From Pseudomonadota bacterium (GTDB lineage Bacteria; Pseudomonadota; Alphaproteobacteria; Acetobacterales; Acetobacteraceae): DNA of 64,000 bases. A model generated the notes under the pieces. That model made no database searches, had not been told where the DNA came from, and saw only the letters and a program-made list of their open reading frames with translations. The number at the start of each line of letters is the position of its first letter. The first letter of the stretch is position 1. The translations under genes and the position numbers were made by a program. The stretch is from positions 1 through 64,000 of the forward strand of contig JAKBAV010000004.1 of the NCBI GenBank assembly GCA_021826225.1, in the 5' to 3' direction. Positions 19,832 to 42,141 of this stretch are shown here, in pieces.

Positions 19832-21511
<1,680 letters not shown>

Positions 21512-21562
21512 TGTATTGTAACTTGTTGATATAAAACAAATCTTTAGGTAATTGAAAGTATA

Positions 21563-21627
21563 TGTGTAAGAAAATGTGTAATTTTAGCCATTTCTAAGCG
21601 ATTTCGTGATTATTACGATTTGTGTAA
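21563..21627. promoter_or_regulatory. Candidate integrase arm-type sites (left end)
   Basis: TGTGTAA at 21563-21569, 21575-21581, 21621-21627; same heptamer in tandem near the right end. Confidence 0.6.
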
Positions 21628-21935
21628 ATTATTGTTTTCATAAAGAATTTTTTAAAGCGCGGTCTTAGGCGTCCTCGCTCCAGCGCCTCGAATCAGATCG
21701 TTACGAACACGGTTGTATCGGGTGCTGGGCACCGTGCCGGGGTGCTCGGCCTGATGGTAAAAATCATTCGACATCCTCCTGTTCTCCCGATCACGACGGG
21801 CGCAACGGGGCGGAGCGGGATCGGCAGGGCGCAATAGGCTGCCGCCGTACTCATTCCTGTCCAATCTCGGCAAATTCGAAAGTGCACAATCAATTTATCC
21901 TTGTAAAATTGGAATTATAAGCCGATATTGCTAGC

Positions 21936-23102
21936 ATGATTGAACGCCACATAAAGCAAAAGCTTCTCGAAGCAATCGGTGACGCCCCTGCCGTCGCCCT
22001 ACTCGGGCCGCGTCAGGTCGGCAAGACCACGCTCGCGCAAGAAATCGGCGATACGCGCCCCTCTATATATCTTGACCTTGAGAGCGCTGCGGACCGCGCC
22101 AAGCTCGCCGACCCGGAAGCCTACCTCGCCAGCCACGAAGATGAACTGGTGATTCTTGACGAGGTACATAGGGCGCCAGAGCTCTTTCAAAGCTTGCGCG
22201 GTCTCATCGACCGCGGACGGCGCAAAGGGAAAACCGCGGGTCGTTTTTTGCTCCTGGGTTCGGCCTCGGTTGATCTGCTTCAGCAATCAGGGGAAAGCCT
22301 GGCCGGGCGGATTTCCTATTTGGAGCTGGGACCGTTTGATGCGCTGGAAGTTCCTGCCAGTGACCTGGAAACCTTATGGGCGCGCGGCGGATTTCCATCG
22401 AGCTTTCTGGCATCAAGCGATGCGGCCAGCTTCCGCTGGCGCCAGGATTTTATCCGCACATATTTGGAGCGCGACATTCCGCAATTCGGCCCGCGCCTTC
22501 CGGCGGAAACGCTGCGGCGGTTATGGACAATGCTTGCCCATAACCAAAGTGAACTGCTTAACGCCGCAAATTTAGCCCGTGCACTCGCGATCGATAACAA
22601 GACGGTCACCCGCTATCTTGATTTGCTGGTCGATCTGCTTCTGGTGCGCCGCTTGCAGCCTTGGCACAGCAACGCCGGCAAACGGCTCGTGAAGTCTCCG
22701 AAGGTCTATGTACGCGATAGCGGCATCGTCCATGCCCTGCTCCGCCTGCCAACGCGCGAGGACGTACTCGGGCATCCTGTCGTCGGTGGGAGCTGGGAGG
22801 GGTTTGTTATCGAATCATTAGTGGCGGCAGCCCCCGAAGGCACGGACGCAAGTTTCTACCGGACTTCGGCGGGAGCTGAGATTGATCTGCTTTTGACCTT
22901 GCCCGGCGACGTGCTTTGGGCCGTCGAAATTAAACGCGGTTCCGCGCCCAAGGTAGGGCGCGGTTTTCATCAGGCTTGCGCTGATTTGAAACCGGCAAAA
23001 ACTTTTGTTGTATATGGCGGTACAGAGCGGTTCCCGCTTGATTTCAGAACCGAGGCAATCGGCCTTTCTGAGTTGGCCGCACAATTGTGCACAGCCGGGT
23101 GA
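21936..23102 (+). CDS. AAA+ ATPase with C-terminal DUF4143
   Basis: Walker A GPRQVGKTTLAQ, Walker B ELVILDEVHRAPELF, DUF4143-like FYRTSAGAEIDLLLTLPGDVLWAVEIKRGSAPK. Confidence 0.9.
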   Translation: MIERHIKQKLLEAIGDAPAVALLGPRQVGKTTLAQEIGDTRPSIYLDLESAADRAKLADPEAYLASHEDELVILDEVHRAPELFQSLRGLIDRGRRKGKTAGRFLLLGSASVDLLQQSGESLAGRISYLELGPFDALEVPASDLETLWARGGFPSSFLASSDAASFRWRQDFIRTYLERDIPQFGPRLPAETLRRLWTMLAHNQSELLNAANLARALAIDNKTVTRYLDLLVDLLLVRRLQPWHSNAGKRLVKSPKVYVRDSGIVHALLRLPTREDVLGHPVVGGSWEGFVIESLVAAAPEGTDASFYRTSAGAEIDLLLTLPGDVLWAVEIKRGSAPKVGRGFHQACADLKPAKTFVVYGGTERFPLDFRTEAIGLSELAAQLCTAG

Positions 23103-23292
23103 TAATTCATCCAGGGAAGGCTGTATTGGTCGCCTGCCGCAAAGGATTACCGGGTGTTCTGCTGGCGGCGAAGTCTGACCGTAAGCTGCCTGACCGCTTC
23201 CGCAAAACTTATCCTGGAAGCTGACGTGCCGCCGTTGTTGATGGAAGTTCTAATCTCGATCGGCTAATGTCGAAATTGGGCGGAGGAAAAAC

Positions 23293-23958
23293 ATGCGAAT
23301 GGACGACTATAGGACGACGCTTGAGGCCCAGGGATGGTGTTCATTGTCGACATCAGTCTCAATTACCCAAGCCGCGCTCAGCGCCGCCGTTGCCAGTCTG
23401 GCGGAGGAATTGGGAGAGATCGTACCCGGGCGAGGGCGCCGGCGCGTCGAGCAAATCGTCCCGCAAGAAACCCAGGCGGCCTATGCCGGCTCGCTAAGCG
23501 AGCAGGTGGGATTCGCACCCATGCCACTCCATACCGACACGGCGCACTGGACCGTCCCGTGTCGATACATGGTAATGGCATGCGCTGAACCGGGCCCGAA
23601 GCCGACCCCTACGATGTTGTTGGACAGTAAAACCGTAGCGCTAGACGCTCGACAGTCGGCGGCATGCAGCACGGCGGTCTTCCTGGTTCGGAACGGACGG
23701 CAATCCTTCTATGGTTCGATCACAGCCCGCGACCGGCCATTCATTCGTTTTGACCTTGGATGCATGGAACCTCTTTCAGCGGAAGGGGCGGAAGTTGCGG
23801 ACGCGATTAGTTACCAACAGAACGCTGAAAAGGCCCGCCGCCACAACTGGCAGCGCGGTGATGTCCTCGTGATTGATAACTGGCGTACGCTCCACGGGCG
23901 TGGCGTTGACGATCATACGGCGCCGGGTCGCGTGTTACTGAGGGCGATGGTGCGATGA
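23293..23958 (+). CDS. Fe(II)/2-oxoglutarate-dependent dioxygenase-like protein (TauD/TfdA-like fold)
   Basis: PLHTDTAHW (HxD-like), RGDVLVIDNWRTLHGRGV distal His, Arg-containing C-terminus (APGRVLLRAMVR). Confidence 0.7.
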   Translation: MRMDDYRTTLEAQGWCSLSTSVSITQAALSAAVASLAEELGEIVPGRGRRRVEQIVPQETQAAYAGSLSEQVGFAPMPLHTDTAHWTVPCRYMVMACAEPGPKPTPTMLLDSKTVALDARQSAACSTAVFLVRNGRQSFYGSITARDRPFIRFDLGCMEPLSAEGAEVADAISYQQNAEKARRHNWQRGDVLVIDNWRTLHGRGVDDHTAPGRVLLRAMVR

Positions 23959-24899
23959 CAGACCAAACGGTTCCTACCGCGATAAGCAAAGAGGGATTAA
24001 TGGGGAAATCGCGTGTCTACGTTCAGCGGGCTTTCCGCTCGAAGCAAGCGAAGGATTTTGACGAATATCAGCTATGGCTATCGCTGGCGCTTGAGTTGCT
24101 GGGCAAGGCTGCGCTCGCCAACATCCATTCCAGCCTCGTTGTCGATCCTACACACTCGACCTCCTTGTTCGCCGCTTCCGGTGTAATTATCAGCACCGAC
24201 ATAAAAACCATTCAGGCTAAAACGCTGTATGAGCGGCTTGGCCATCTGTCAAAATATTTTGACAAAAGTGTGAAAGATTTCTGCGATGCAATCTCGTTGA
24301 GGCGGAATGCCGAGTTGCATTCGGGAGAGCTACCATTCAAGCAGATGCGGCTTGAAGCATGGGAAGGGAAGTTCTGGCACGCTGCGCAAATTATTCTGGA
24401 TTTGCTGCAGTCAAATCTCGAGGAATGGTTAGGAGCGGATCGGGCGAAAGCCCCGATCCAGCTTGTCAACGAAGCAGCTGAGGCACTTCAGGAAGCAGCG
24501 AAACTACGAGTTGTTCAAGCGCGCGACCACTTTTTGCAACGCCCCAAAAAGGAGAGAGACGAAGTTCTATCGCTGTCGAAAAACAAGCATGCATTCCACT
24601 ATCCTAAAATATTCAAGTTTGTTGGAGAACATGAATGGCCGGTCGATTGCCCAGCTTGCGCAAGTCGCGCGTTCTTTGCGGGCGATCTTTTCGCTGAAGA
24701 GGTTCTCGACGAAAACGCTGGGGAAGGTGGGCTGGAAGAAGAAGTTGAGAAGAGCTATGGCGCGGAGGAATTTAGGTGCCCGACGTGTAACCTTCACCTC
24801 GACAGCCGCGAGGAAATTGAAGCCGCCGGGCTCAATCCGGATTATACGGAAGTGGAGGTTCGGGAACGTGAGCATGAACCTGAATATGGCAATTGTTGA
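23955..24899 (+). CDS. Uncharacterised protein with HEPN-like Rx4-6H motif and C-terminal zinc-ribbon cysteines
   Basis: SLRRNAELHSGELPF; CPAC...CPTC pairs; ATGA overlap with the dioxygenase gene. Confidence 0.65.
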   Translation: MTDQTVPTAISKEGLMGKSRVYVQRAFRSKQAKDFDEYQLWLSLALELLGKAALANIHSSLVVDPTHSTSLFAASGVIISTDIKTIQAKTLYERLGHLSKYFDKSVKDFCDAISLRRNAELHSGELPFKQMRLEAWEGKFWHAAQIILDLLQSNLEEWLGADRAKAPIQLVNEAAEALQEAAKLRVVQARDHFLQRPKKERDEVLSLSKNKHAFHYPKIFKFVGEHEWPVDCPACASRAFFAGDLFAEEVLDENAGEGGLEEEVEKSYGAEEFRCPTCNLHLDSREEIEAAGLNPDYTEVEVREREHEPEYGNC

Positions 24900-24906
24900 A
24901 CCTTAG

Positions 24907-24961
24907 CGCCCGCTGCGTCAGCAAGTAGGGTGCAATGCCACGCGGCATTGCACCGCGGGCG
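24907..24961. other. Long structured intergenic hairpin
   Basis: Inner perfect 11-bp stem GGTGCAATGCC-acgc-GGCATTGCACC (24929-24954), outer 7-bp stem CGCCCGC/GCGGGCG (24907-24913 / 24955-24961). Confidence 0.85.
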
Positions 24962-25006
24962 AGCCGGTGTGGCGGGAAGATTGTTACGTTGGCAAGGAGT
25001 TAAACC

Positions 25007-25468
25007 GTGGGTGCACAAGCAACGTCAACCGTCCCAACATGGACATTAGCAATTCCTATCGTCGCAGCTTTTATAGCGTTTACCGGTGTTGCCCTTACGC
25101 TGGTGCTATCTTGGCGAAACGCCAATAGGCAACTAAGATCAGCCCATACCCTCAAAATCGCCGAGATGCGACAGGAATGGATCAATTCCCTAAGGGACTC
25201 AATGAGCAAATTTCAATCGTATGGAGTAACACCAGGATTATCTCACACGAGCGAGAGAGAGTTCTATGAATGCGGAACGCGCATTGAACTTCTAATGAAT
25301 CCAAAAGACCCAGATTACGAGGAATTGCAAAACTGCCTATATGATTTTCTTTCCGCAGACGAACTTGTCGACAAATACGGCGCGAACCCACGATTTGTGG
25401 CCATTTGCCAACGAATTCTAAAGCGGGAGTGGGACACGCTCAAGCGTGAGATAGCTTCAGCAGGTTGA
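25007..25468 (+). CDS. Hypothetical single-TM protein with cytoplasmic helical domain
   Basis: N-terminal TM LAIPIVAAFIAFTGVALTLVLSW followed by RNANRQLRSAHTLKIAEMRQEWINSLRDSMSKF. Confidence 0.75.
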   Translation: MGAQATSTVPTWTLAIPIVAAFIAFTGVALTLVLSWRNANRQLRSAHTLKIAEMRQEWINSLRDSMSKFQSYGVTPGLSHTSEREFYECGTRIELLMNPKDPDYEELQNCLYDFLSADELVDKYGANPRFVAICQRILKREWDTLKREIASAG

Positions 25469-25719
25469 AAGTGAGGCGTTATCCTAGGTACGTAGGTGAT
25501 GTCGGTCAGACCATGTCGTCCCGCGCGTCCTCAAAATGATCCGCCCCTCTATGCTGATGGATAATGTCCGGATTTTGGGAGCGGGAAAAGAGGCCTGAAT
25601 GACCGGCATGGGCGCAAAGCTGCGGCTAAATTGTGTCGTTCCGACAAAATTGGTGGAATTTGTGATGGATAGCTCATCCAAAATTGCTCAGCACGGCAAG
25701 TCAAAAACCAAAAGACCCG

Positions 25720-27852
25720 CTACAGCCTCAACTTTCCTCTCTGCGTCTGGCCAAGAACCTGAGTCTGCTCTGGCACCTTCGAAGCACGTTCGGCCAGGCG
25801 CTGCCAATACTCACCCTCGGTGATGCGCATCGCTCGCTTCGCCATTGTCAATTCGGTTAGTCGCTCAACAAGTGCCGTGCCGGAGCGGATCATCTGGGCG
25901 GCTCGCTCACTGTGCCGGCGCAGCCGCTCAACCAAGGCTGGAAGCCGGCTTTCCAAAACTCTCATGATCCGGCCGTGCTCAAGCCTCTCAGGTAAGTAGG
26001 TCGCCCTGTCCTGGGCCATCTTCCGTTCCTCAATCCGCTGAAATGCCGCCTGCACGGTCTGTATCGTACCGCGCCGGAGGTCAGCAGCCCGTTCAATCAG
26101 AGAAACGGCACTCTCCTTTTCGTCCTGCCGCGAAAGATTGCGCGTCACATTGGCCAGCACGTCGCTCGCCGTAATCTCCCGGCGATCCCCAAGCGGCCGC
26201 CGACCGACAATCTCGGCCCGTTCAGCCCCTTCCGAAGTTACAATGAAACTTTGCTCGCGGTGACGGCTGCCGCTGGTATAGGCACCAAAAGCCGTCACCA
26301 ACCGGCTCCCGCTTGGCATTGCATGAATATGTTCCGTGACGGTAGAGCCCTGCGCGGTATGCGTGGTCAACGCATCGCCATATGCTTGCGCCGCTTCAGT
26401 ACCGCTTACCGTCCGCTTGCTAAAATGCGCAGCCACACGCTCAGGTACGGCCGCGAGCCGTGCCATTTCCGTGCGCGAATCCAGGGTGATCTCCACACCA
26501 TGGCGGCGGAGATTATCGGCCAGATAAGCTTGGTATAACGCACCCCATTCGTGGATGCGTCCATCAAGCTGGGCCAGATCGAGGCCGCCCACGCGCCCGC
26601 TTTCCGTCTGCACCACATTGAATACCGCGACATGGGTATGGACCTGCATATCGCCTGGCACGCGCCCATCACTGCCGATGACGCTGTGCAGTTCAGTCGC
26701 CTCACACCCCTGTTCATCGCGCGTGACAACGGCGACGGTCGGCCGCGCCGCATAATGGTCGAATGAAACCCAGCCTATTGAGCCAGGCTCGTACCCATCC
26801 TTCCCGCCCTTACCCATTCGCGCCCGCCCAATCTCCTTCTCGATAATGCCCATAACGCTTTCGATCGCATCGCTATGCGCCTGGTGCATCATGGCGCGCT
26901 CAGCATTCGTCGGCGCAAATGCCCAAGCCACGGAGAGAGATTTTGGCGCTGAGAATGTAAGGTCGATATATCCGATCCGGGATTTTGAGGCTTCGAGCAG
27001 CGTCATATAGGCGCGGTCGGACAGGACACGGCCGTCGGCCAAGCGGCCGGAAAGAATGTTTTTACGCTCCTCGGCCGAAAGCTCCCGTTTCTTGGAGTCA
27101 AGCGCTGTCTCCAGGCGTTTTACCGCGGCGGTTGCTGCTATCTCCGGCAAAACTTCACCATTGGCTGTCCGTCCCGAGAGCATATGCTCAAGCTGCTCCT
27201 GGTTTGGCTTTTGGTCGCCTTTCAGGCCAAAAATCTGGTTCAAACTTTGAGTGCCGGCCTGTATCTGCTTGCCAGCAATCACGCGGCCATCCGCACGCTG
27301 GCCATTTAACAGGAAAGCCACCTCGCTCGGCGTAAGCCCTCTGTTGGGCACGATACCGAGACGGTGTGCAAGAACGGGATTTATACCCCGACGCGGCGTC
27401 GCCAACGCACTGCTATAATCGCGCGCTGCCATGGCATCATTGATCGCGACATCAAGCCGATCAATCGCAACGGGATTTCCCAACCTGGTCAGGCTGGCCA
27501 TGGCTTCGTCACGCGCAACGAGGCCGGCTCCCGCGAATGCAGCTACCGCCCGTAATTCAAGCGCGCCGGCGCGAAGCACGGAGCCGTCCGCAGCAAGGAC
27601 GCTTTCACCTAAACGCGCCACTTCAATTTTCACGAGTTCGTCGAGTGCGTCGCCGCCTGGTAAAATCCCCTTCACGGCGAGACGGTTATAGCGGCTATAT
27701 GCCGCCTCTGCCTGCGTGGGCGGCGTCATGCCCTGTTCATAATATTCCGCCATCACCGCCATCTCGGGCGACAAGGTTTGCTGCAGAAGGTGCTCGGCCA
27801 TATTGCGGGCCGCACGCGGGGCTCCCGCGGCACCGGTGCGATATGTCAGCAT
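25720..27852 (-). CDS. MobF-family (TrwC/TraI-like) relaxase without helicase domain
   Basis: DLTFSAPKSLSVAWAF and QVHTHVAVFNVVQ HxH metal motif, N-terminal tyrosines; protein ends without SF1 helicase motifs. Confidence 0.88.
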   Translation of the reverse strand: MLTYRTGAAGAPRAARNMAEHLLQQTLSPEMAVMAEYYEQGMTPPTQAEAAYSRYNRLAVKGILPGGDALDELVKIEVARLGESVLAADGSVLRAGALELRAVAAFAGAGLVARDEAMASLTRLGNPVAIDRLDVAINDAMAARDYSSALATPRRGINPVLAHRLGIVPNRGLTPSEVAFLLNGQRADGRVIAGKQIQAGTQSLNQIFGLKGDQKPNQEQLEHMLSGRTANGEVLPEIAATAAVKRLETALDSKKRELSAEERKNILSGRLADGRVLSDRAYMTLLEASKSRIGYIDLTFSAPKSLSVAWAFAPTNAERAMMHQAHSDAIESVMGIIEKEIGRARMGKGGKDGYEPGSIGWVSFDHYAARPTVAVVTRDEQGCEATELHSVIGSDGRVPGDMQVHTHVAVFNVVQTESGRVGGLDLAQLDGRIHEWGALYQAYLADNLRRHGVEITLDSRTEMARLAAVPERVAAHFSKRTVSGTEAAQAYGDALTTHTAQGSTVTEHIHAMPSGSRLVTAFGAYTSGSRHREQSFIVTSEGAERAEIVGRRPLGDRREITASDVLANVTRNLSRQDEKESAVSLIERAADLRRGTIQTVQAAFQRIEERKMAQDRATYLPERLEHGRIMRVLESRLPALVERLRRHSERAAQMIRSGTALVERLTELTMAKRAMRITEGEYWQRLAERASKVPEQTQVLGQTQRGKLRL

Positions 27853-28266
27853 CTCAGGACGCTCTGCGCATGATGCGGCCCGTTAACAGCGCTGCACCGG
27901 CCAACAACACCTCCATCACGTCACGCGAGCTAACAGGATGCACAGTGAGATGAAAAATGATACGATCGGCACATTGAGACTTGGCCATAGATTCCTCCTG
28001 GCGATCTGCAATCTTAAAACGCTATCCTGCGGCTCATCTTAGTCATGAGATCAGGGCCATCGCAACACGACATTCGGCGGGAAAGGGAGCTTCCGAAGGG
28101 TGCCTTGGTCTGTGGCAAAAATCCAAAATACAAACACGATTGACGCAGGTATTATTCTCAGAAAAAATCTCAGAACAAACCCAAGACTTGTCCACTGAAC
28201 AAACCCTCGAAAAGTCTTCGGAAGAATCCACTGAACTATGTTAATGAAATTGAACCGGCCAATAAA

Positions 28267-28761
28267 TTAATTTTCTTTTGGACGCGCCTTGCGGTAGCCC
28301 GTTCTGGATAAAAACCGACCGGCGGCGGTCCCGAATAATTCATCCGTCTCCCGCCATAGATCGATAAACTCATCTCGCTCTGCACGCGGCATGGCCTCCC
28401 ACCTGACGGCAAACGCCGCATCCTCGTCGGCCTTTTCGGCGTCGTGTTTGGCTTTCCATTTCGCGAGTTCGGCTTTTTGCTCGACAGAGGGATTTCTGCG
28501 ACCACCATAGCGGAATTCGCTAACAGCTTTGGCCAGATTGGGGCCGGTCCAAGGTTTGCCGGTGCGGTACAAAATCCCCACCTCATTCAACGCCGCCGCC
28601 ACTGCCGCCCAGCTGAACCGCTCCTCACGGTTCAGCTTCGTAAGTCGATCGGCATTGTCGCGTAGCCACGGGGCAAGCTGGCTGCCCGGACGCCAGTTTT
28701 CACGTAGCCGATCAGCCAAGGCTGATATTTCTGCGGGGGTGAAGGTGGCAGGCTTTGGCAT
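28267..28761 (-). CDS. Hypothetical protein, possible mobilization accessory
   Basis: Coding-like composition, same strand as relaxase; start at MPKPATFTPAEISALADRLRENWRPG. Confidence 0.5.
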   Translation of the reverse strand: MPKPATFTPAEISALADRLRENWRPGSQLAPWLRDNADRLTKLNREERFSWAAVAAALNEVGILYRTGKPWTGPNLAKAVSEFRYGGRRNPSVEQKAELAKWKAKHDAEKADEDAAFAVRWEAMPRAERDEFIDLWRETDELFGTAAGRFLSRTGYRKARPKEN

Positions 28762-28854
28762 GAGACGTTTTTTATGCCGAAAATCAAAAGCAAGAAAATT
28801 AATTCTGTGAATAGTTCTGTGCCCTGTCTCGGTGGCCTGGACCAAAATAGCCCC

Positions 28855-29390
28855 TCAGGCAGCAGTCTTTTGCGCCGAGTCATTCATCGCACGCAGTTGC
28901 AGGCCATGCAGATAATCCGCCGCCCGCTGGGCGTGGCGCGCCGCCGAAAAGATGAAGCGCTTATCGTCCTTCAGCACCTTCAGCCAGGTCGCAATATAAG
29001 CAGCGTGATCCTCGCTTGTCTCTGGTATGATGCCGAGATCGGCGCATAGAAACGCGCTGCCCAATTCCGCTACAAGCTCTTCACGCGCATAGCCTTCGTC
29101 GCCCCATTTGGCGCGGCCCATATCACGGGACAGGCGTTTCTCGTGCTTGGTCCAATGCGTCAGCTCATGCGCCAGCGTCGCGGCATAGCTTTCAGCATCC
29201 CGGAACGTCTCAAACGGCGGCATCTGCACAAAGTCCGCGCCTTCTGCATAATAGGCACGCGCGCCGCCATGCCGAATATCCGCCCCCGTCGCCGCAAAGA
29301 AACGATCTGCCGTTTCCAGTCTGTCCATTGGTGTCAGTGCATAAGACTCAGACTTGGCGCTGTATTGCGTTGGCAAGGCACAATTTGAGG
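28855..29390 (-). pseudogene. ArdC-like antirestriction protein, C-terminal metallopeptidase domain only (N-terminus lost)
   Basis: ADRFFAATGADIRHGGARAYYAEGADFVQMPPFETFRDAESYAATLAHELTHWTKHEKRL; HELTH zincin motif. Residues upstream of about 29390 are antisense to an unrelated reading frame. Confidence 0.7.
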
Positions 29391-29551
29391 CCGCGCTCAT
29401 CGAGCTTGTCACGAAACTGCCGGAAGTTGAGCTGGCGGCCATTCGGTCGTCGCTAGATAAGGCTGTGCCACCGACTGAGGAGGAAATCGCGCCGCCGCCG
29501 GCCATCGACGAAGAGGATGAGATATAGGCGGCCGATTTAGATATCCGGCCG

Positions 29552-29581
29552 AAAAAACCGGGCCATCAGGTCCGGTTTTTT
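29552..29581. terminator. Bidirectional rho-independent terminator
   Basis: AAAAAACCGG-gccatcaggt-CCGGTTTTTT. Confidence 0.88.
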
Positions 29582-30257
29582 ATGCCTCCTTCAGAATATC
29601 TGGTGCCGTCTTTCCGGACCAAGTGAACCGCCAGCGCTCCGCCCGCCGGACGTTCCCGACCAAGGCAGGCCGGAAACATGCAATGCATGGTTCCGGGCAA
29701 CGCCTGGCACTGGGATAGATGATTCCCAACGCGTCGGCTTTGAGAAGGTCATCAGCCAGTTTTTGAGAGTGAATGTAGCTGCCTAGCTGCAGACAGTTTG
29801 AAAACCCTGACTGCCCCCTGATGTCATGGAATTCGGCGTCGAAGTCCGCCAGAAAATCGGTGTACGTCACGCTGTCGTGGAACCAGTTGATTTCGGCATA
29901 TTCAAGTGTCTTGTGCCAGACGACTTCACTGATAGCCGTTTCAACTTCAAACCCAGCATACCAGGCACCGCGGTCTGGCCCATTAAATCGGCCGCCTTGC
30001 GGATGCGGGTGAGTAAAAGCCGCATTGATGATGGTGTAGTTTGGGATGCCGAACACAAGTTCGGCGGTTCCAATCCCAGGCGTCAAATTATTCTCCGCCC
30101 GCAGGCGATCGTTGGTCGCGTTGTCGAGATCGAATATCTCCAGAAGATGCTGCTCATCATCCGCGATCACGGCTAACACTGGCGGATCGGAATATTTCGA
30201 CGGAATCAATCGGTGGGTATCAATCTGGCGAAGTGAGATGGTCGGCGGCAATGACAT
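29580..30257 (-). CDS. RES-domain toxin
   Basis: HPHPQGGRFNGPDRGAWYAGFEVETAISEVVWHK; directly downstream of Xre/MbcA/ParS-like antitoxin. Confidence 0.85.
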   Translation of the reverse strand: MSLPPTISLRQIDTHRLIPSKYSDPPVLAVIADDEQHLLEIFDLDNATNDRLRAENNLTPGIGTAELVFGIPNYTIINAAFTHPHPQGGRFNGPDRGAWYAGFEVETAISEVVWHKTLEYAEINWFHDSVTYTDFLADFDAEFHDIRGQSGFSNCLQLGSYIHSQKLADDLLKADALGIIYPSARRCPEPCIACFRPALVGNVRRAERWRFTWSGKTAPDILKEA

Positions 30258-30258
30258 T

Positions 30259-30696
30259 CTACACGCCGCCCCTACGAGCATCGAGCAGCCGGCGAACCGT
30301 CTGGAATGAGAGAAGCCCGCCGGCCTGAATAAATGCCAAGGGCGTTAGTCCATGGAATATCCGGTTTTTGTTTGGCAGGCTTATCCATTTGTCGGCGAGA
30401 TCGTCACCGTAAAGAATGTGTAGGGCCTTGAATATGCCAACCAGGTAGGAAATCCTGGTTAAGGTGTCCGTATCAAGAGTTCGATCCGGCGTCTTCTTCA
30501 ACGCATAAAAAGCCCCGTTGGATATCCCGCCAAGCAAAGCCTTGGCATCATCATCCTTGACCTGCCATTTGGCCATTATATTGAAAAATGCTCGCAGCGC
30601 TCCCCCGCTCAATCGCACCCGTTCTCCCTGGTCGTTGAGGTCGATCAAAGGAGAGGGCTCATACCTGGTTCTAGGATATCTGAGGGCTTCAGACAT
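30259..30696 (-). CDS. Xre/MbcA/ParS-type antitoxin
   Basis: HTH-like N-terminus, DUF2384-like C-terminus (IFHGLTPLAFIQAGGLLSFQTVRRLLDARR). Confidence 0.85.
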   Translation of the reverse strand: MSEALRYPRTRYEPSPLIDLNDQGERVRLSGGALRAFFNIMAKWQVKDDDAKALLGGISNGAFYALKKTPDRTLDTDTLTRISYLVGIFKALHILYGDDLADKWISLPNKNRIFHGLTPLAFIQAGGLLSFQTVRRLLDARRGGV

Positions 30697-30818
30697 AGAA
30701 GTAGCTCCAAAAATGGAGATTTTTTACTCTATTATTGTAGTTTGTGTCAAGGCTATTGTTTACCGGTTTGGTGCTTGCCCAAAAAATTGAAGTAGCGTGC
30801 TTTGTAGAGAATCAGGTC

Positions 30819-31133
30819 TGGTGCGGGCGGCCGGAATCGAACCGGCACAGGGCTAAGCCCCAACGGATTTTCTTACCCCTACGGTTTTCACCGCCGGCCC
30901 CTTCGGGCCGTTTGTGGTCTGGACTATCCCTTCACCTTAGCGCCTTCGCGCTTTAGGTGCTGCCCGTCTAGTCTCTACACCTTCTTAGGGCCGCCTTCGC
31001 GGCCCTAAGCTTGGCTCGGGGTTGCCATTTTAAAGGATTCCCCGAATTTGAGCAGTTCTACATCGCAGGTTTCCCCACGCGCACTCAATTCGTCGTCTAA
31101 GTCCGGTGCGTCTACCAGTTTCGCCACGCCCGC
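30819..31133 (-). tRNA. tRNA-Leu(UAA) interrupted by a group I intron; CCA encoded
   Basis: Exons GCGGGCGTGGCGAAACTGGTAGACGCACCGGACTT | AAAATCCGTTGGGGCTTAGCCCTGTGCCGGTTCGATTCCGGCCGCCCGCACCA; full acceptor, D, variable and T arms; anticodon UAA after splicing. Confidence 0.95.
30872..31098 (-). ncRNA. Group I intron (IC3-like, 227 nt) in the tRNA-Leu(UAA) anticodon loop
   Basis: P1: exon ACUU with intron GAGU giving U.G at the splice site; P3 CUGCUC/GGGCAG; P4 UCGGGG/CCCCGA; P6a hairpin CUUAGGGCCGC-gaag-GCGGCCCUAAG; R GGUGUAGAGACUAGACGG; S AAGGGAUAGUCC (P7 GACUA/UAGUC); P8 CACCU..AGGUG; terminal G. Confidence 0.95.
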
Positions 31134-31183
31134 ATGCGCGGCACTGTAACGGCAAATGGCCCCAGGGCAAAGGGGAGGGGACT

Positions 31184-32464
31184 CTATTTCTCTTTGCTTG
31201 TCAGCCGGGTAGGCTTCTTGGCTTTCGACTTTCTGACATTGATGGCAGCTGCATCCAGCGTGTTTTTGAGATGGATCGCATAGTATTTCTCAATCATCTC
31301 AACGGAAGTCCGGCAGTTTTTGGCGATCTGATAGATGTCCGCCCCCTCCATGAGCCGCAGGCATATATAGGTATGGCGCAGGCTGTAGGCCGTCCGGCGG
31401 TTGCCCTCGCGGTCAAATTTGAGCTTCTCTTCCTCCAGCACCGTCTTCAGCAATTCCCGGTGGCTACTGTCGAACAGGAGGTCCGTGGGTTTGGGCTTGA
31501 CCATATTGGCGAATGCCGACTCGGACCTGCCGGTCGGTTCTTCGCCGTTCTCATCTTTTTCGACCACCGGCCGCAGCCTGCCCCGCAGCCGCTCGAACGG
31601 AATCACAGCTCCCGGCATGCTCTTGCAGTAGCCGGTGCCGCGCTTGCCGCGCACTTCGATTTCCAGGATGCGCTCATTCGTGGCCTCATCGTTCACCACC
31701 GTCACATCCCGGAATTGCAGCCGGGCGGCTTCGTCCGGCCGCAGCCCGGTATTGGCCATAAGCAGCACATAATCATGCAACTGTTCGCAAGACCGCCGCC
31801 AGCGTGGCTTCGGCGGATTTTTGGCGCGCTTCTGCGTGGCGCGCCAAAGCTGATTGTACTCTTCCAATGAGAACCAGCCACGATGCGAGACTTTTCCCGA
31901 AGCACGGAATGGCGCGGAGAGGTCTGGCAAATAGGCGAGCCAGCCGTGCCGGTTGGCACACTTCAGGACCTGGCGGAGGCAAACGATTTCCTGGTGGAGG
32001 GTGTTTCTGGCCGGCCGCATCGGCTCGCCGGTTTGTGGATGCTTGCGCGAGGTCATCCGGTGAATGCGATAATCCTGCACCATGCCGGGCGTGATCTCGG
32101 TCAGTTCTTTTTTGCCAAAGAACGGGCGCAGATGCACGCGCAATCGATCCTGATGGCCTTGCACATAAACCGGGCTGCGCTCGCCGGCCGTCAGCGCGAT
32201 AAACTCTTTCAAAAACTGCTCGGCGGCTTTGTCGAAGGTCACACCCCCGCCGCGAATTTCGCCGCGGCGCACCTTGCCGCGCAAATCCAGAAACCAGTCC
32301 TCGGCGAATTCCTTGGCCTGCGCCAGGCTTTCTTCTTTTGTGCTGACGCGGTGATTGCGGCCTTTGAAGAAGGCCGCGCATTGCCAGAAGCGCGAGTTCT
32401 CGCGCCGATAGACGTGAAGCTGACCACCCATGAGCTCATGACTGACCGACATACGCGTACGCAT
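31184..32464 (-). CDS. int: Tyrosine site-specific recombinase/integrase
   Basis: NTGLRPDEAARLQFRDV (Arg I), YSLRHTYICLRLMEGADIYQIAKNC (RxxH), VEMIEKYYAIHL (Tyr); adjacent to attR. Confidence 0.95.
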   Translation of the reverse strand: MRTRMSVSHELMGGQLHVYRRENSRFWQCAAFFKGRNHRVSTKEESLAQAKEFAEDWFLDLRGKVRRGEIRGGGVTFDKAAEQFLKEFIALTAGERSPVYVQGHQDRLRVHLRPFFGKKELTEITPGMVQDYRIHRMTSRKHPQTGEPMRPARNTLHQEIVCLRQVLKCANRHGWLAYLPDLSAPFRASGKVSHRGWFSLEEYNQLWRATQKRAKNPPKPRWRRSCEQLHDYVLLMANTGLRPDEAARLQFRDVTVVNDEATNERILEIEVRGKRGTGYCKSMPGAVIPFERLRGRLRPVVEKDENGEEPTGRSESAFANMVKPKPTDLLFDSSHRELLKTVLEEEKLKFDREGNRRTAYSLRHTYICLRLMEGADIYQIAKNCRTSVEMIEKYYAIHLKNTLDAAAINVRKSKAKKPTRLTSKEK

Positions 32465-32492
32465 ACGCGATTTGCGGGCAAAAGTCGAGAGG

Positions 32493-32510
32493 TGTGTAAG
32501 GGCTGTGTAA
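32493..32510. promoter_or_regulatory. Candidate integrase arm-type sites (right end)
   Basis: TGTGTAA at 32493-32499 and 32504-32510. Confidence 0.6.
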
Positions 32511-32575
32511 GTATTTGATCTAAAAAGACTTATTTATATCAATAAGTTAGATAAAATTTTGGGCTCCCAATCGGT

Positions 32576-32592
32576 TTTTAAGTCCGGTGCGT
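32576..32592. repeat. att core, right copy
   Basis: TTTTAAGTCCGGTGCGT. Confidence 0.92.
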
Positions 32593-32613
32593 CTACCATT
32601 CCGCCACACCCAC
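32576..32613 (-). pseudogene. 5' half of split host tRNA-Leu(UAA), attR side
   Basis: Minus strand GTGGGTGTGGCGGAATGGTAGACGCACCGGACTTAAAA followed by non-tRNA sequence. Confidence 0.92.
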
Positions 32614-40955: not shown

Positions 40956-42044
40956 ATGAAGATCATCCGGCATTTCACGCCAAACTGGTTCACCGTCACC
41001 ATGGGAACCGGCATACTGGCGCTCCTGCTCAACCAGCTCCCCGGTGCCGCCTGGGCGCATCTGGCCGGCGCGGCACTGTGGCGGGTCAATATCGTGCTGT
41101 TCGCCCTTTTCACGCTGCTTTATGCCGCGCGCTGGGTGCTTTACCCGCGTGAGGCGGCGCTGATTTTCGGCCATGCCGTGATGCCGATGTTCCTCGGCGC
41201 CATCCCGATGGGGCTGGCCACGATCGTCAACGGCACCATTGTGTTCACGCATGATTACGCCGCCGCGCTGCAGCTCTGGCGCGCCGATGCCGTGCTCTCC
41301 GTGCTGATCGGGCTGGCCGTGCCGTTCGCCATGTTCACCCGCCAGACGCACCGGATTGAGAGCATGACCGGGGTCTGGCTGCTGCCGATCGTGGCCTCGG
41401 AAGTGGCCGCTGCCAGCGCCGGGCTGCTGCTGCCGCATCTGGCCGGGCAGAGCGCGCTGGATGTGCTGCTGGCGGGCTATGTGCTGTGGGCGCTTTCCGT
41501 GCCGCTGGCGCTCGGCGTGCTGGTTATTCTGTTCCTGCGCCTGGTGCTGCACAAGCTGCCGCATCGCGACATGGCGGTAACCGGCTGGCTGGCGCTGGGG
41601 CCGCTCGGCACCGGGGCGCTGGCGCTGCTGCTGCTGGGCCATGCCGCGCCGGGCGTGCTGGCACCGCTCGGCATGGCGACTGTGGGGATGGTGGCGCAGG
41701 GCATCGGCGTGATCGGCGGGCTGCTGTTCTGGGGCTATGGCGCGTGGTGGCTGGCCATGGCGGTGGCGATGACCGGCAGCTATCTGCGCGAGGGCCTGCC
41801 CTTCAACATGGGCTGGTGGGGCTTCACCTTCCCGCTCGGTGTATTTACTTCAGCGAGCTTCGCCCTGGGGGCACAGACCGGCGCGGCGGTGTTCACCATG
41901 CTCGCGGTGGGGCAGACGGCGGTTGTCGGCGTGTTCTGGGTGATGGTGGCGGCGCGCACGCTGGCCGGCGCGTTCCGCGGCGAGCTGCTGCATGCGCCGT
42001 GCCTCGCGCAGCCGCAGCCGCGCGGCGAGATGCGGATCGCCTGA
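40956..42044 (+). CDS. TDT family transporter (TehA/Ssu1-like; possible sulfite exporter)
   Basis: FTPNWFTVTMGTGILALLL, about 10 TM segments. Confidence 0.88.
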   Translation: MKIIRHFTPNWFTVTMGTGILALLLNQLPGAAWAHLAGAALWRVNIVLFALFTLLYAARWVLYPREAALIFGHAVMPMFLGAIPMGLATIVNGTIVFTHDYAAALQLWRADAVLSVLIGLAVPFAMFTRQTHRIESMTGVWLLPIVASEVAAASAGLLLPHLAGQSALDVLLAGYVLWALSVPLALGVLVILFLRLVLHKLPHRDMAVTGWLALGPLGTGALALLLLGHAAPGVLAPLGMATVGMVAQGIGVIGGLLFWGYGAWWLAMAVAMTGSYLREGLPFNMGWWGFTFPLGVFTSASFALGAQTGAAVFTMLAVGQTAVVGVFWVMVAARTLAGAFRGELLHAPCLAQPQPRGEMRIA

Positions 42045-42141
42045 CAAATCCTCCGGCTCCTCTTGTCAAAAAACCCGGAGACTCCCAGGTGAATGAAATG
42101 GCGCGGCGCCGCCGCGACGTGCAGAAGCTGAAGGAGTTGCC

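Follow-up and report, generated by a model that had tools for sequence, protein, structure and literature searches.

A group I intron in the rescue tRNA-Leu(UAA) of an alphaproteobacterial integrative element as a probable removable shield against integration

A tRNA-Leu(UAA) gene interrupted by a group I intron is carried, next to a tyrosine integrase, by a probably mobilizable integrative element of an alphaproteobacterium from the family Acetobacteraceae. The element lies in the anticodon loop of the tRNA-Leu(UAA) gene of its host, which is split in two, and the intron is placed inside the very att core at which the host gene was broken. The DNA studied, referred to here as the window, is a stretch of 64,000 nucleotides (positions 1 to 64,000 of contig JAKBAV010000004.1, assembly GCA_021826225.1). 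In our opinion, the intron-bearing gene is probably the rescue tRNA of the element, with the intron acting as a shield against integration that splicing removes from the transcript, so that the tRNA still works. This reading links two separate topics, introns of tRNAs that splice themselves and elements which break a tRNA gene and supply a substitute, and would give the intron a concrete job.

The rescue tRNA is encoded on the minus strand and consists of a 5′ exon (31099–31133, ending in CCGGACTT with U34), the intron (30872–31098) and a 3′ exon (30819–30871, from AAAATCCG to CGCCCGCACCA, with an encoded CCA). The intron is 227 nt long, contains no ORF, separates U34 from A35, starts with AGACG and ends in G. 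The original prediction had described it from the letters alone, and the covariance search proposed there gave a significant match to RF00028 (56.3 bits, E 1.3e-11), above the gathering score of 50 and the sole match in the genome. The helices listed at that time, namely P1 with U.G at the splice site, P3, P4, P6, P7, P8 and the P9 hairpins, are all present, as is the terminal G, and the joined exons fold as a tRNA-Leu(UAA). In an alignment of 29 related introns, the given structure is paired in 89.1% of cells, and 113 double-change cells were observed versus a mean of 41.6 after shuffling. P3 and P7 are paired in 100% of the aligned sequences, with double changes, and the U.G pair of P1 at the 5′ splice site was found in 29 of 29 introns. 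With a catalytic core P3–P8 including P7, covariation, the P1 U.G pair and the terminal G, the presence of a real group I intron in this tRNA-Leu(UAA), and not of a chance resemblance, is confirmed. The unspliced gene is missed by ARAGORN in its default mode and wrongly called tRNA-Ser in its intron mode.

The original prediction also placed the gene on an integrative element, and the integrase, att repeats and relaxase found around it agree with this; it overlooked the host tRNA split around the element and two extra copies of the anticodon-loop core (21498–21511 and 32579–32592). The core, ACGCACCGGACTTA, is 14 bp long and corresponds to the 5′ side of the anticodon arm. It occurs in three exact copies on the minus strand (32592–32579, 31111–31098 and 21511–21498), where 0.2 would be expected at up to two mismatches. 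The copy at the integrase end (32579–32592) closes the 5′ half of the native host tRNA-Leu(UAA), GTGGGTGTGGCGGAATGGTAGACGCACCGGACTTA (32579–32613, minus strand), stranded directly upstream of the integrase, and the copy at the far end (21498–21511) opens the matching, displaced 3′ half (21446–21498, minus strand, ending in CACCCGCACCA). When joined, the two halves form a normal, intronless tRNA-Leu(UAA) that is 87 bases long and whose acceptor stem is paired throughout, one G-U pair included. An intact tRNA-Leu(UAA) was found at the same site, adjoining the same penicillin-binding-protein (PBP) gene, in seven genomes of the same genus, and two of these seven empty sites share the left flank as well. 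Since the halves rejoin to a tRNA and the site is intact in these congeners, the region 21498–32592 can be regarded as an insertion of 11.08 kb, and its GC content of 52–60% differs from that of the flanks (62–70%).

The third core copy lies within the rescue tRNA (31098–31111, minus strand), where the intron begins at the last core base. The fact that the intron tRNA and the far end have the 14-bp core in common would also suit ordinary integration, in which attP supplies a new 3′ half together with the intron, and the tRNA is then composed of the host 5′ half, the intron and the 3′ half of the element. At this locus, such a scheme is refuted by the third core copy together with the host 5′ half at 32579–32613, upstream of the integrase, whose acceptor-stem partner is the far 3′ half (GTGGGTG/CACCCGC), whereas the intron tRNA has a matching acceptor stem of its own (GCGGGCG/CGCCCGC); we give this explanation practically no credence. 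A related proposal, that the intron and 3′ exon form a part of attP which restores the host tRNA, was ruled out by the same upstream 5′ half. The host tRNA was thus disrupted and not rebuilt at att, its halves being left 11.08 kb apart.

The element encodes a tyrosine integrase of 426 aa with a Phage_int_SAM_3 domain (31184–32464, minus strand) and a MobF/TrwC relaxase for mobilization (25720–27852, minus strand). Its cargo includes an Xre/MbcA-like antitoxin (30259–30696), a RES-domain toxin (29580–30281) and an MPTase-PolyVal zincin-like metallopeptidase domain (28855–29505), all on the minus strand, as well as an AAA_14/DUF4143 ATPase (21936–23102, plus strand). The scan of its ORFs gave no phage structural genes. 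With integrase, att repeats and relaxase present, the region 21498–32592 is, as far as gene content can tell, probably a mobilizable integrative element. The same genome encodes one more integrase of this family, with about 56% identity (G000:C131:8753–9934), which has no adjoining tRNA-Leu.

The rescue tRNA-Leu(UAA) sits 50 bp downstream of the integrase. A second UAA-reading tRNA-Leu was not found in the 87%-complete assembly, the other leucine tRNAs being those with anticodons CAA, CAG and GAG only. A CAA-reading tRNA-Leu can be dispensable if a UAA-reading one is present, and UUA codons need the UAA tRNA. Ten TTA codons were counted in 7291 codons of the flanking genes. Because neither half of the host gene can function, no other UAA tRNA-Leu was found and TTA is used, the intron-bearing gene is likely the sole source of tRNA-Leu(UAA) in this host, and the cutting of the host gene in two makes it a rescue tRNA in the sense known from tRNA-dependent lysogeny.

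The following mechanism may be proposed. Recombination by the tyrosine integrase in the anticodon loop of the tRNA-Leu(UAA) gene of the host would leave two dead halves, and UUA codons would then rely on the tRNA-Leu(UAA) of the element. If the isotype is the same, the rescue gene would by its nature be a second attB, and its use by the integrase would destroy the rescue; the element would have to make its rescue gene unlike attB and yet keep a tRNA. Changes of paired stem bases would be one solution. A self-splicing intron in the loop would be the other, with the mature tRNA unchanged: with the intron placed inside the att core, after U34 and before A35, the second half of the core is missing from the rescue gene at the DNA level, and self-splicing of the transcript would rebuild the normal anticodon loop. 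The intron would in this way separate "looks like a target", a property of the DNA, from "works as a tRNA", a property of the RNA. We infer that the rescue gene is expressed and spliced, that the integrase fails on the intron-bearing copy and that this failure has been selected for.

The relatives of the integrase, collected as 80 loci from bacterial genomes and more from 289 Alphaproteobacteria, provide material for evaluating this mechanism. No relatives were found by tblastn in viral contigs and no matches among phage records at E 1e-20. At most of these loci, the integrase gene is followed, about 20–110 bp after its stop, by a tRNA-Leu and preceded, about 100–170 bp before its start, by a tRNA-Leu 5′ half. 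Two elements (L070 and L072) also yielded the other half of the host gene, at a distance of 6.07 and 11.07 kb and with 7/7 pairs in the acceptor stem. Among rescue tRNAs with the anticodon UAA, a group I intron occupies the same position in 26 parsed cases and in six more (L065, L080, L081, L084, L133 and L142), and those with CAA and UAG have it in none. The sole intronless UAA rescue tRNA (L091) has an altered anticodon stem, its core region being CACTTAAAATG. Relatives of the element with the tRNA-Leu(UAA) intron also occur in Acidobacteriota, and several elements of this phylum inserted in tRNA-Leu(CAA) are without a rescue tRNA. Some integrase relatives have tRNA-fMet as the target, and the tRNA is left intact there.

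Several loci deserve mention for their arrangement. At two of them (L123 and L127), tRNA-Leu(UAA) is the target and a rescue tRNA was not seen past the integrase, and in two others (L067 and L133) the rescue tRNA is an intron-bearing UAA type, but the target is tRNA-Leu(CAA). On Bradyrhizobium plasmids, decayed relatives of the element were noted, in which a C- or N-terminal remnant of the integrase adjoins the intron tRNA (L003:6227–6328 and L005:4577–5002).

The main comparison sets the intron against the state of the att core. When their exons are joined, 25 of the 26 parsed rescue tRNAs with an intron read GACTTAAAATC, the att core itself. An intact core was found in only 4 of 30 intronless rescue tRNAs (with anticodons CAA and UAG and, in one case, UAA), while in the remaining 26 it is changed in several ways, such as GATTCAAAATC, CACTCAAAATG, GTCTCAAAAAC and GGCTCAAAATC. 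For the association of intron and core in rescue tRNAs, the Fisher test gives 1e-10, with kinship ignored. The rule for intronless rescue tRNAs is not absolute, as shown by the four which keep the core (L085, L087, L092 and L124). One of these loci (L124:8691–11167) has two tandem integrases of the family behind one tRNA-Leu 5′ half, and its intronless rescue tRNA is the one that keeps the core. As background, GACTCAAAA was present in about three quarters of the tRNA-Leu(CAA) matches listed for 115 Alphaproteobacteria genomes. At the DNA level, the intron copies differ from the core in 3–5 of 11 bases, because the intron displaces its right side, and the intronless ones in 0–3. The left 5–7 core bases stay unchanged beside the intron, and therefore the protection could be partial.

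On the integrase tree, the presence of the intron changes at least nine times on starred (well-supported) branches. It follows the target UAA, with about six of eight independent pairs in agreement and none opposed (p 0.03). For the intron versus the core, the same tree offers only three pairs on starred branches, none of them opposed, which is not significant alone. The absence of the intron from CAA rescue tRNAs may reflect splice-site chemistry, since CAA anticodon loops lack U34.

The intron could have another job. According to a regulatory explanation, splicing gates the output of the rescue tRNA or hides this tRNA from anticodon nucleases, and no block of the integrase is involved. Similar introns in phage tRNA genes without a nearby integrase indicate that an advantage independent of the integrase may exist; however, regulation leaves unexplained why the core is changed in intronless rescue tRNAs and kept in the exons of intron copies, and we consider it highly improbable.

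The distribution of such introns is much wider than that of the element. With our own model, further tRNA-Leu(UAA) introns were found at ordinary chromosomal loci in the 289 Alphaproteobacteria genomes; this removes the argument that an intron at the position typical of cyanobacteria is exotic in Proteobacteria. Five native chromosomal genes of this kind were noted (L297, L299, L302, L303 and L304), and the first and fourth of them have a MoCF_biosynth-domain neighbour in common. Introns in tRNA-Leu(UAA) also occur on plasmids and in phages, and many phage tRNA genes contain related introns with no integrase nearby. Anticodon-loop group I introns are common in phage-borne tRNAs (Leu-UAA, Lys, Arg and others) of environmental viral contigs (L172–L251), with further loci at L169:3995–4781 and L170:3995–4285, and the 700-nt intron of the former seems to contain an HNH-type ORF. 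A review of 2014 described the phage introns known at that time as being in protein genes only (PMC3984707).

Another setting is the aac(3)-IId/tmrB-like resistance region of enterobacterial plasmids, which holds a tRNA-Leu(UAA) with a group I intron (L002:6001–6297 and L063:9103–9401). Matches of 60–80% to the query were found in 1277 plasmid records, and the E. coli version of the intron tRNA in 646 of 5426 E. coli genomes. In the intron tree, this intron groups with alphaproteobacterial ones, which hints at the source of the resistance segment. The nearest relatives of the 227-nt intron itself, in a tree built without cyanobacterial tRNA-Leu introns, are introns on elements with the same integrase, which points to the element itself as the vehicle of transfer between phyla. 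Horizontal transfer, as suggested in the original prediction, is therefore favoured by these relatives and not by the position of the intron, which is not exotic outside cyanobacteria.

Introns in ordinary chromosomal tRNA-Leu(UAA) genes and in phage tRNAs without an integrase show that the intron type can exist with no shielding role, and make a passenger origin the main and a serious rival. In this case, the element took up a tRNA-Leu(UAA) which already had the intron, the intron is neutral, and its effect on att is a by-product or a later benefit; native introns nest, although weakly, among those of the elements. This origin does not easily account for the intronless UAA tRNAs of the targeted hosts, set against UAA rescue tRNAs that nearly all have the intron (26 parsed and six others, with one lacking it), for the escape of intronless rescue tRNAs from the core by stem changes, or for an intron that tracks repeated target switches; the same pattern also appears again in unrelated phages of the Daredevil type. 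On the whole, we regard the passenger origin as rather unlikely and the shield as probable.

Gordonia phage Daredevil, reached via blastn, provides this independent case. Between its integrase and gene 53, there is an unannotated tRNA-Lys(UUU) split by an intron of 238 nt after U34 (L168:3839–4150, about 41820–42131 of the record). The intron scored 151 bits with our own intron model, though it was left out of model building, and it was missed by RF00028 at the gathering score. The same interval contains the attP core of the phage, CGGACTTTTAATCCGC, which is identical to the joined exons of the split tRNA. In the phages Cheetobro and Mollymur, the rescue tRNAs have anticodon stems changed versus their own att cores (GCCGGCTTTTAACCGGC and GGTCACTCATAATGACT, respectively). 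Taken together, these phages suggest that both solutions recur in a second integrase family and with another tRNA. The published entry for Daredevil gives tRNA-Lys-TTT as the integration site, no phage tRNA and clear plaques (PMC10865867). Judging from its genome, this phage, unrelated to the element, does have an apparent rescue tRNA, which standard tRNA finders cannot see because the intron splits it; the published description is affected accordingly. The clear plaques indicate that the rescue may not work in that host.

If these observations are generalized, a rescue tRNA must cease to resemble attB, via a stem change or an intron, and this rule predicts such features beside other integrases. 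A broader version, in which anticodon-loop group I introns were selected as integrase shields both in the rescue tRNAs of elements and, as immunity of host genes to anticodon-loop integrases, in chromosomes, seems doubtful to us. If it were true, such selection would explain the anticodon-loop position and the persistence of bacterial tRNA introns.

Group I introns in bacterial anticodon loops are known from the tRNA-Leu(UAA) of cyanobacteria and plastids and from the tRNA-Arg(CCU) and tRNA-Ile(CAU) of proteobacteria, and we take their type to be subgroup IC3. The intron considered here resembles them in its place after U34, small size, lack of an ORF, P1 U.G pair, R/S core and terminal G, and differs in its setting, being in the rescue tRNA of an integrative element and adjoining an integrase. 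With other integrative and mobilizable elements, the present one shares an integrase, a MobF relaxase, toxin-antitoxin cargo and insertion in a tRNA gene, but here insertion destroys the target tRNA without rebuilding it at the junction, and a separate gene with an intron takes its place.

The closest parallel is tRNA-dependent lysogeny of actinobacteriophages, for which the need for the tRNA of the element was proven experimentally (Guerrero-Bustamante & Hatfull 2024, PMC10865867). Common to both are a tyrosine integrase, a short att core in a host tRNA which is not rebuilt, and a compensating element tRNA of the same isotype; in the phage Gaia, for example, a tRNA-Leu-CAA is located downstream of Int (PMC10865867). 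The element works like these systems and is not a member of them, because its carrier is no temperate phage: it is related to conjugation, and its rescue tRNA is split at the core by an intron, while introns in rescue tRNAs are not mentioned in that paper. Randau & Soll (2008, as cited in PMC3293823) put forward the hypothesis that tRNA introns block integration, formulated for archaeal host genes with protein-spliced introns, and direct evidence for it is lacking according to PMC3293823. The present case is similar to this proposal in that an intron inside an att site would prevent recombination, and different in that the intron-bearing copy belongs to the element itself and the intron is a ribozyme, so that an old idea of integration-blocking tRNA introns becomes testable in bacteria.
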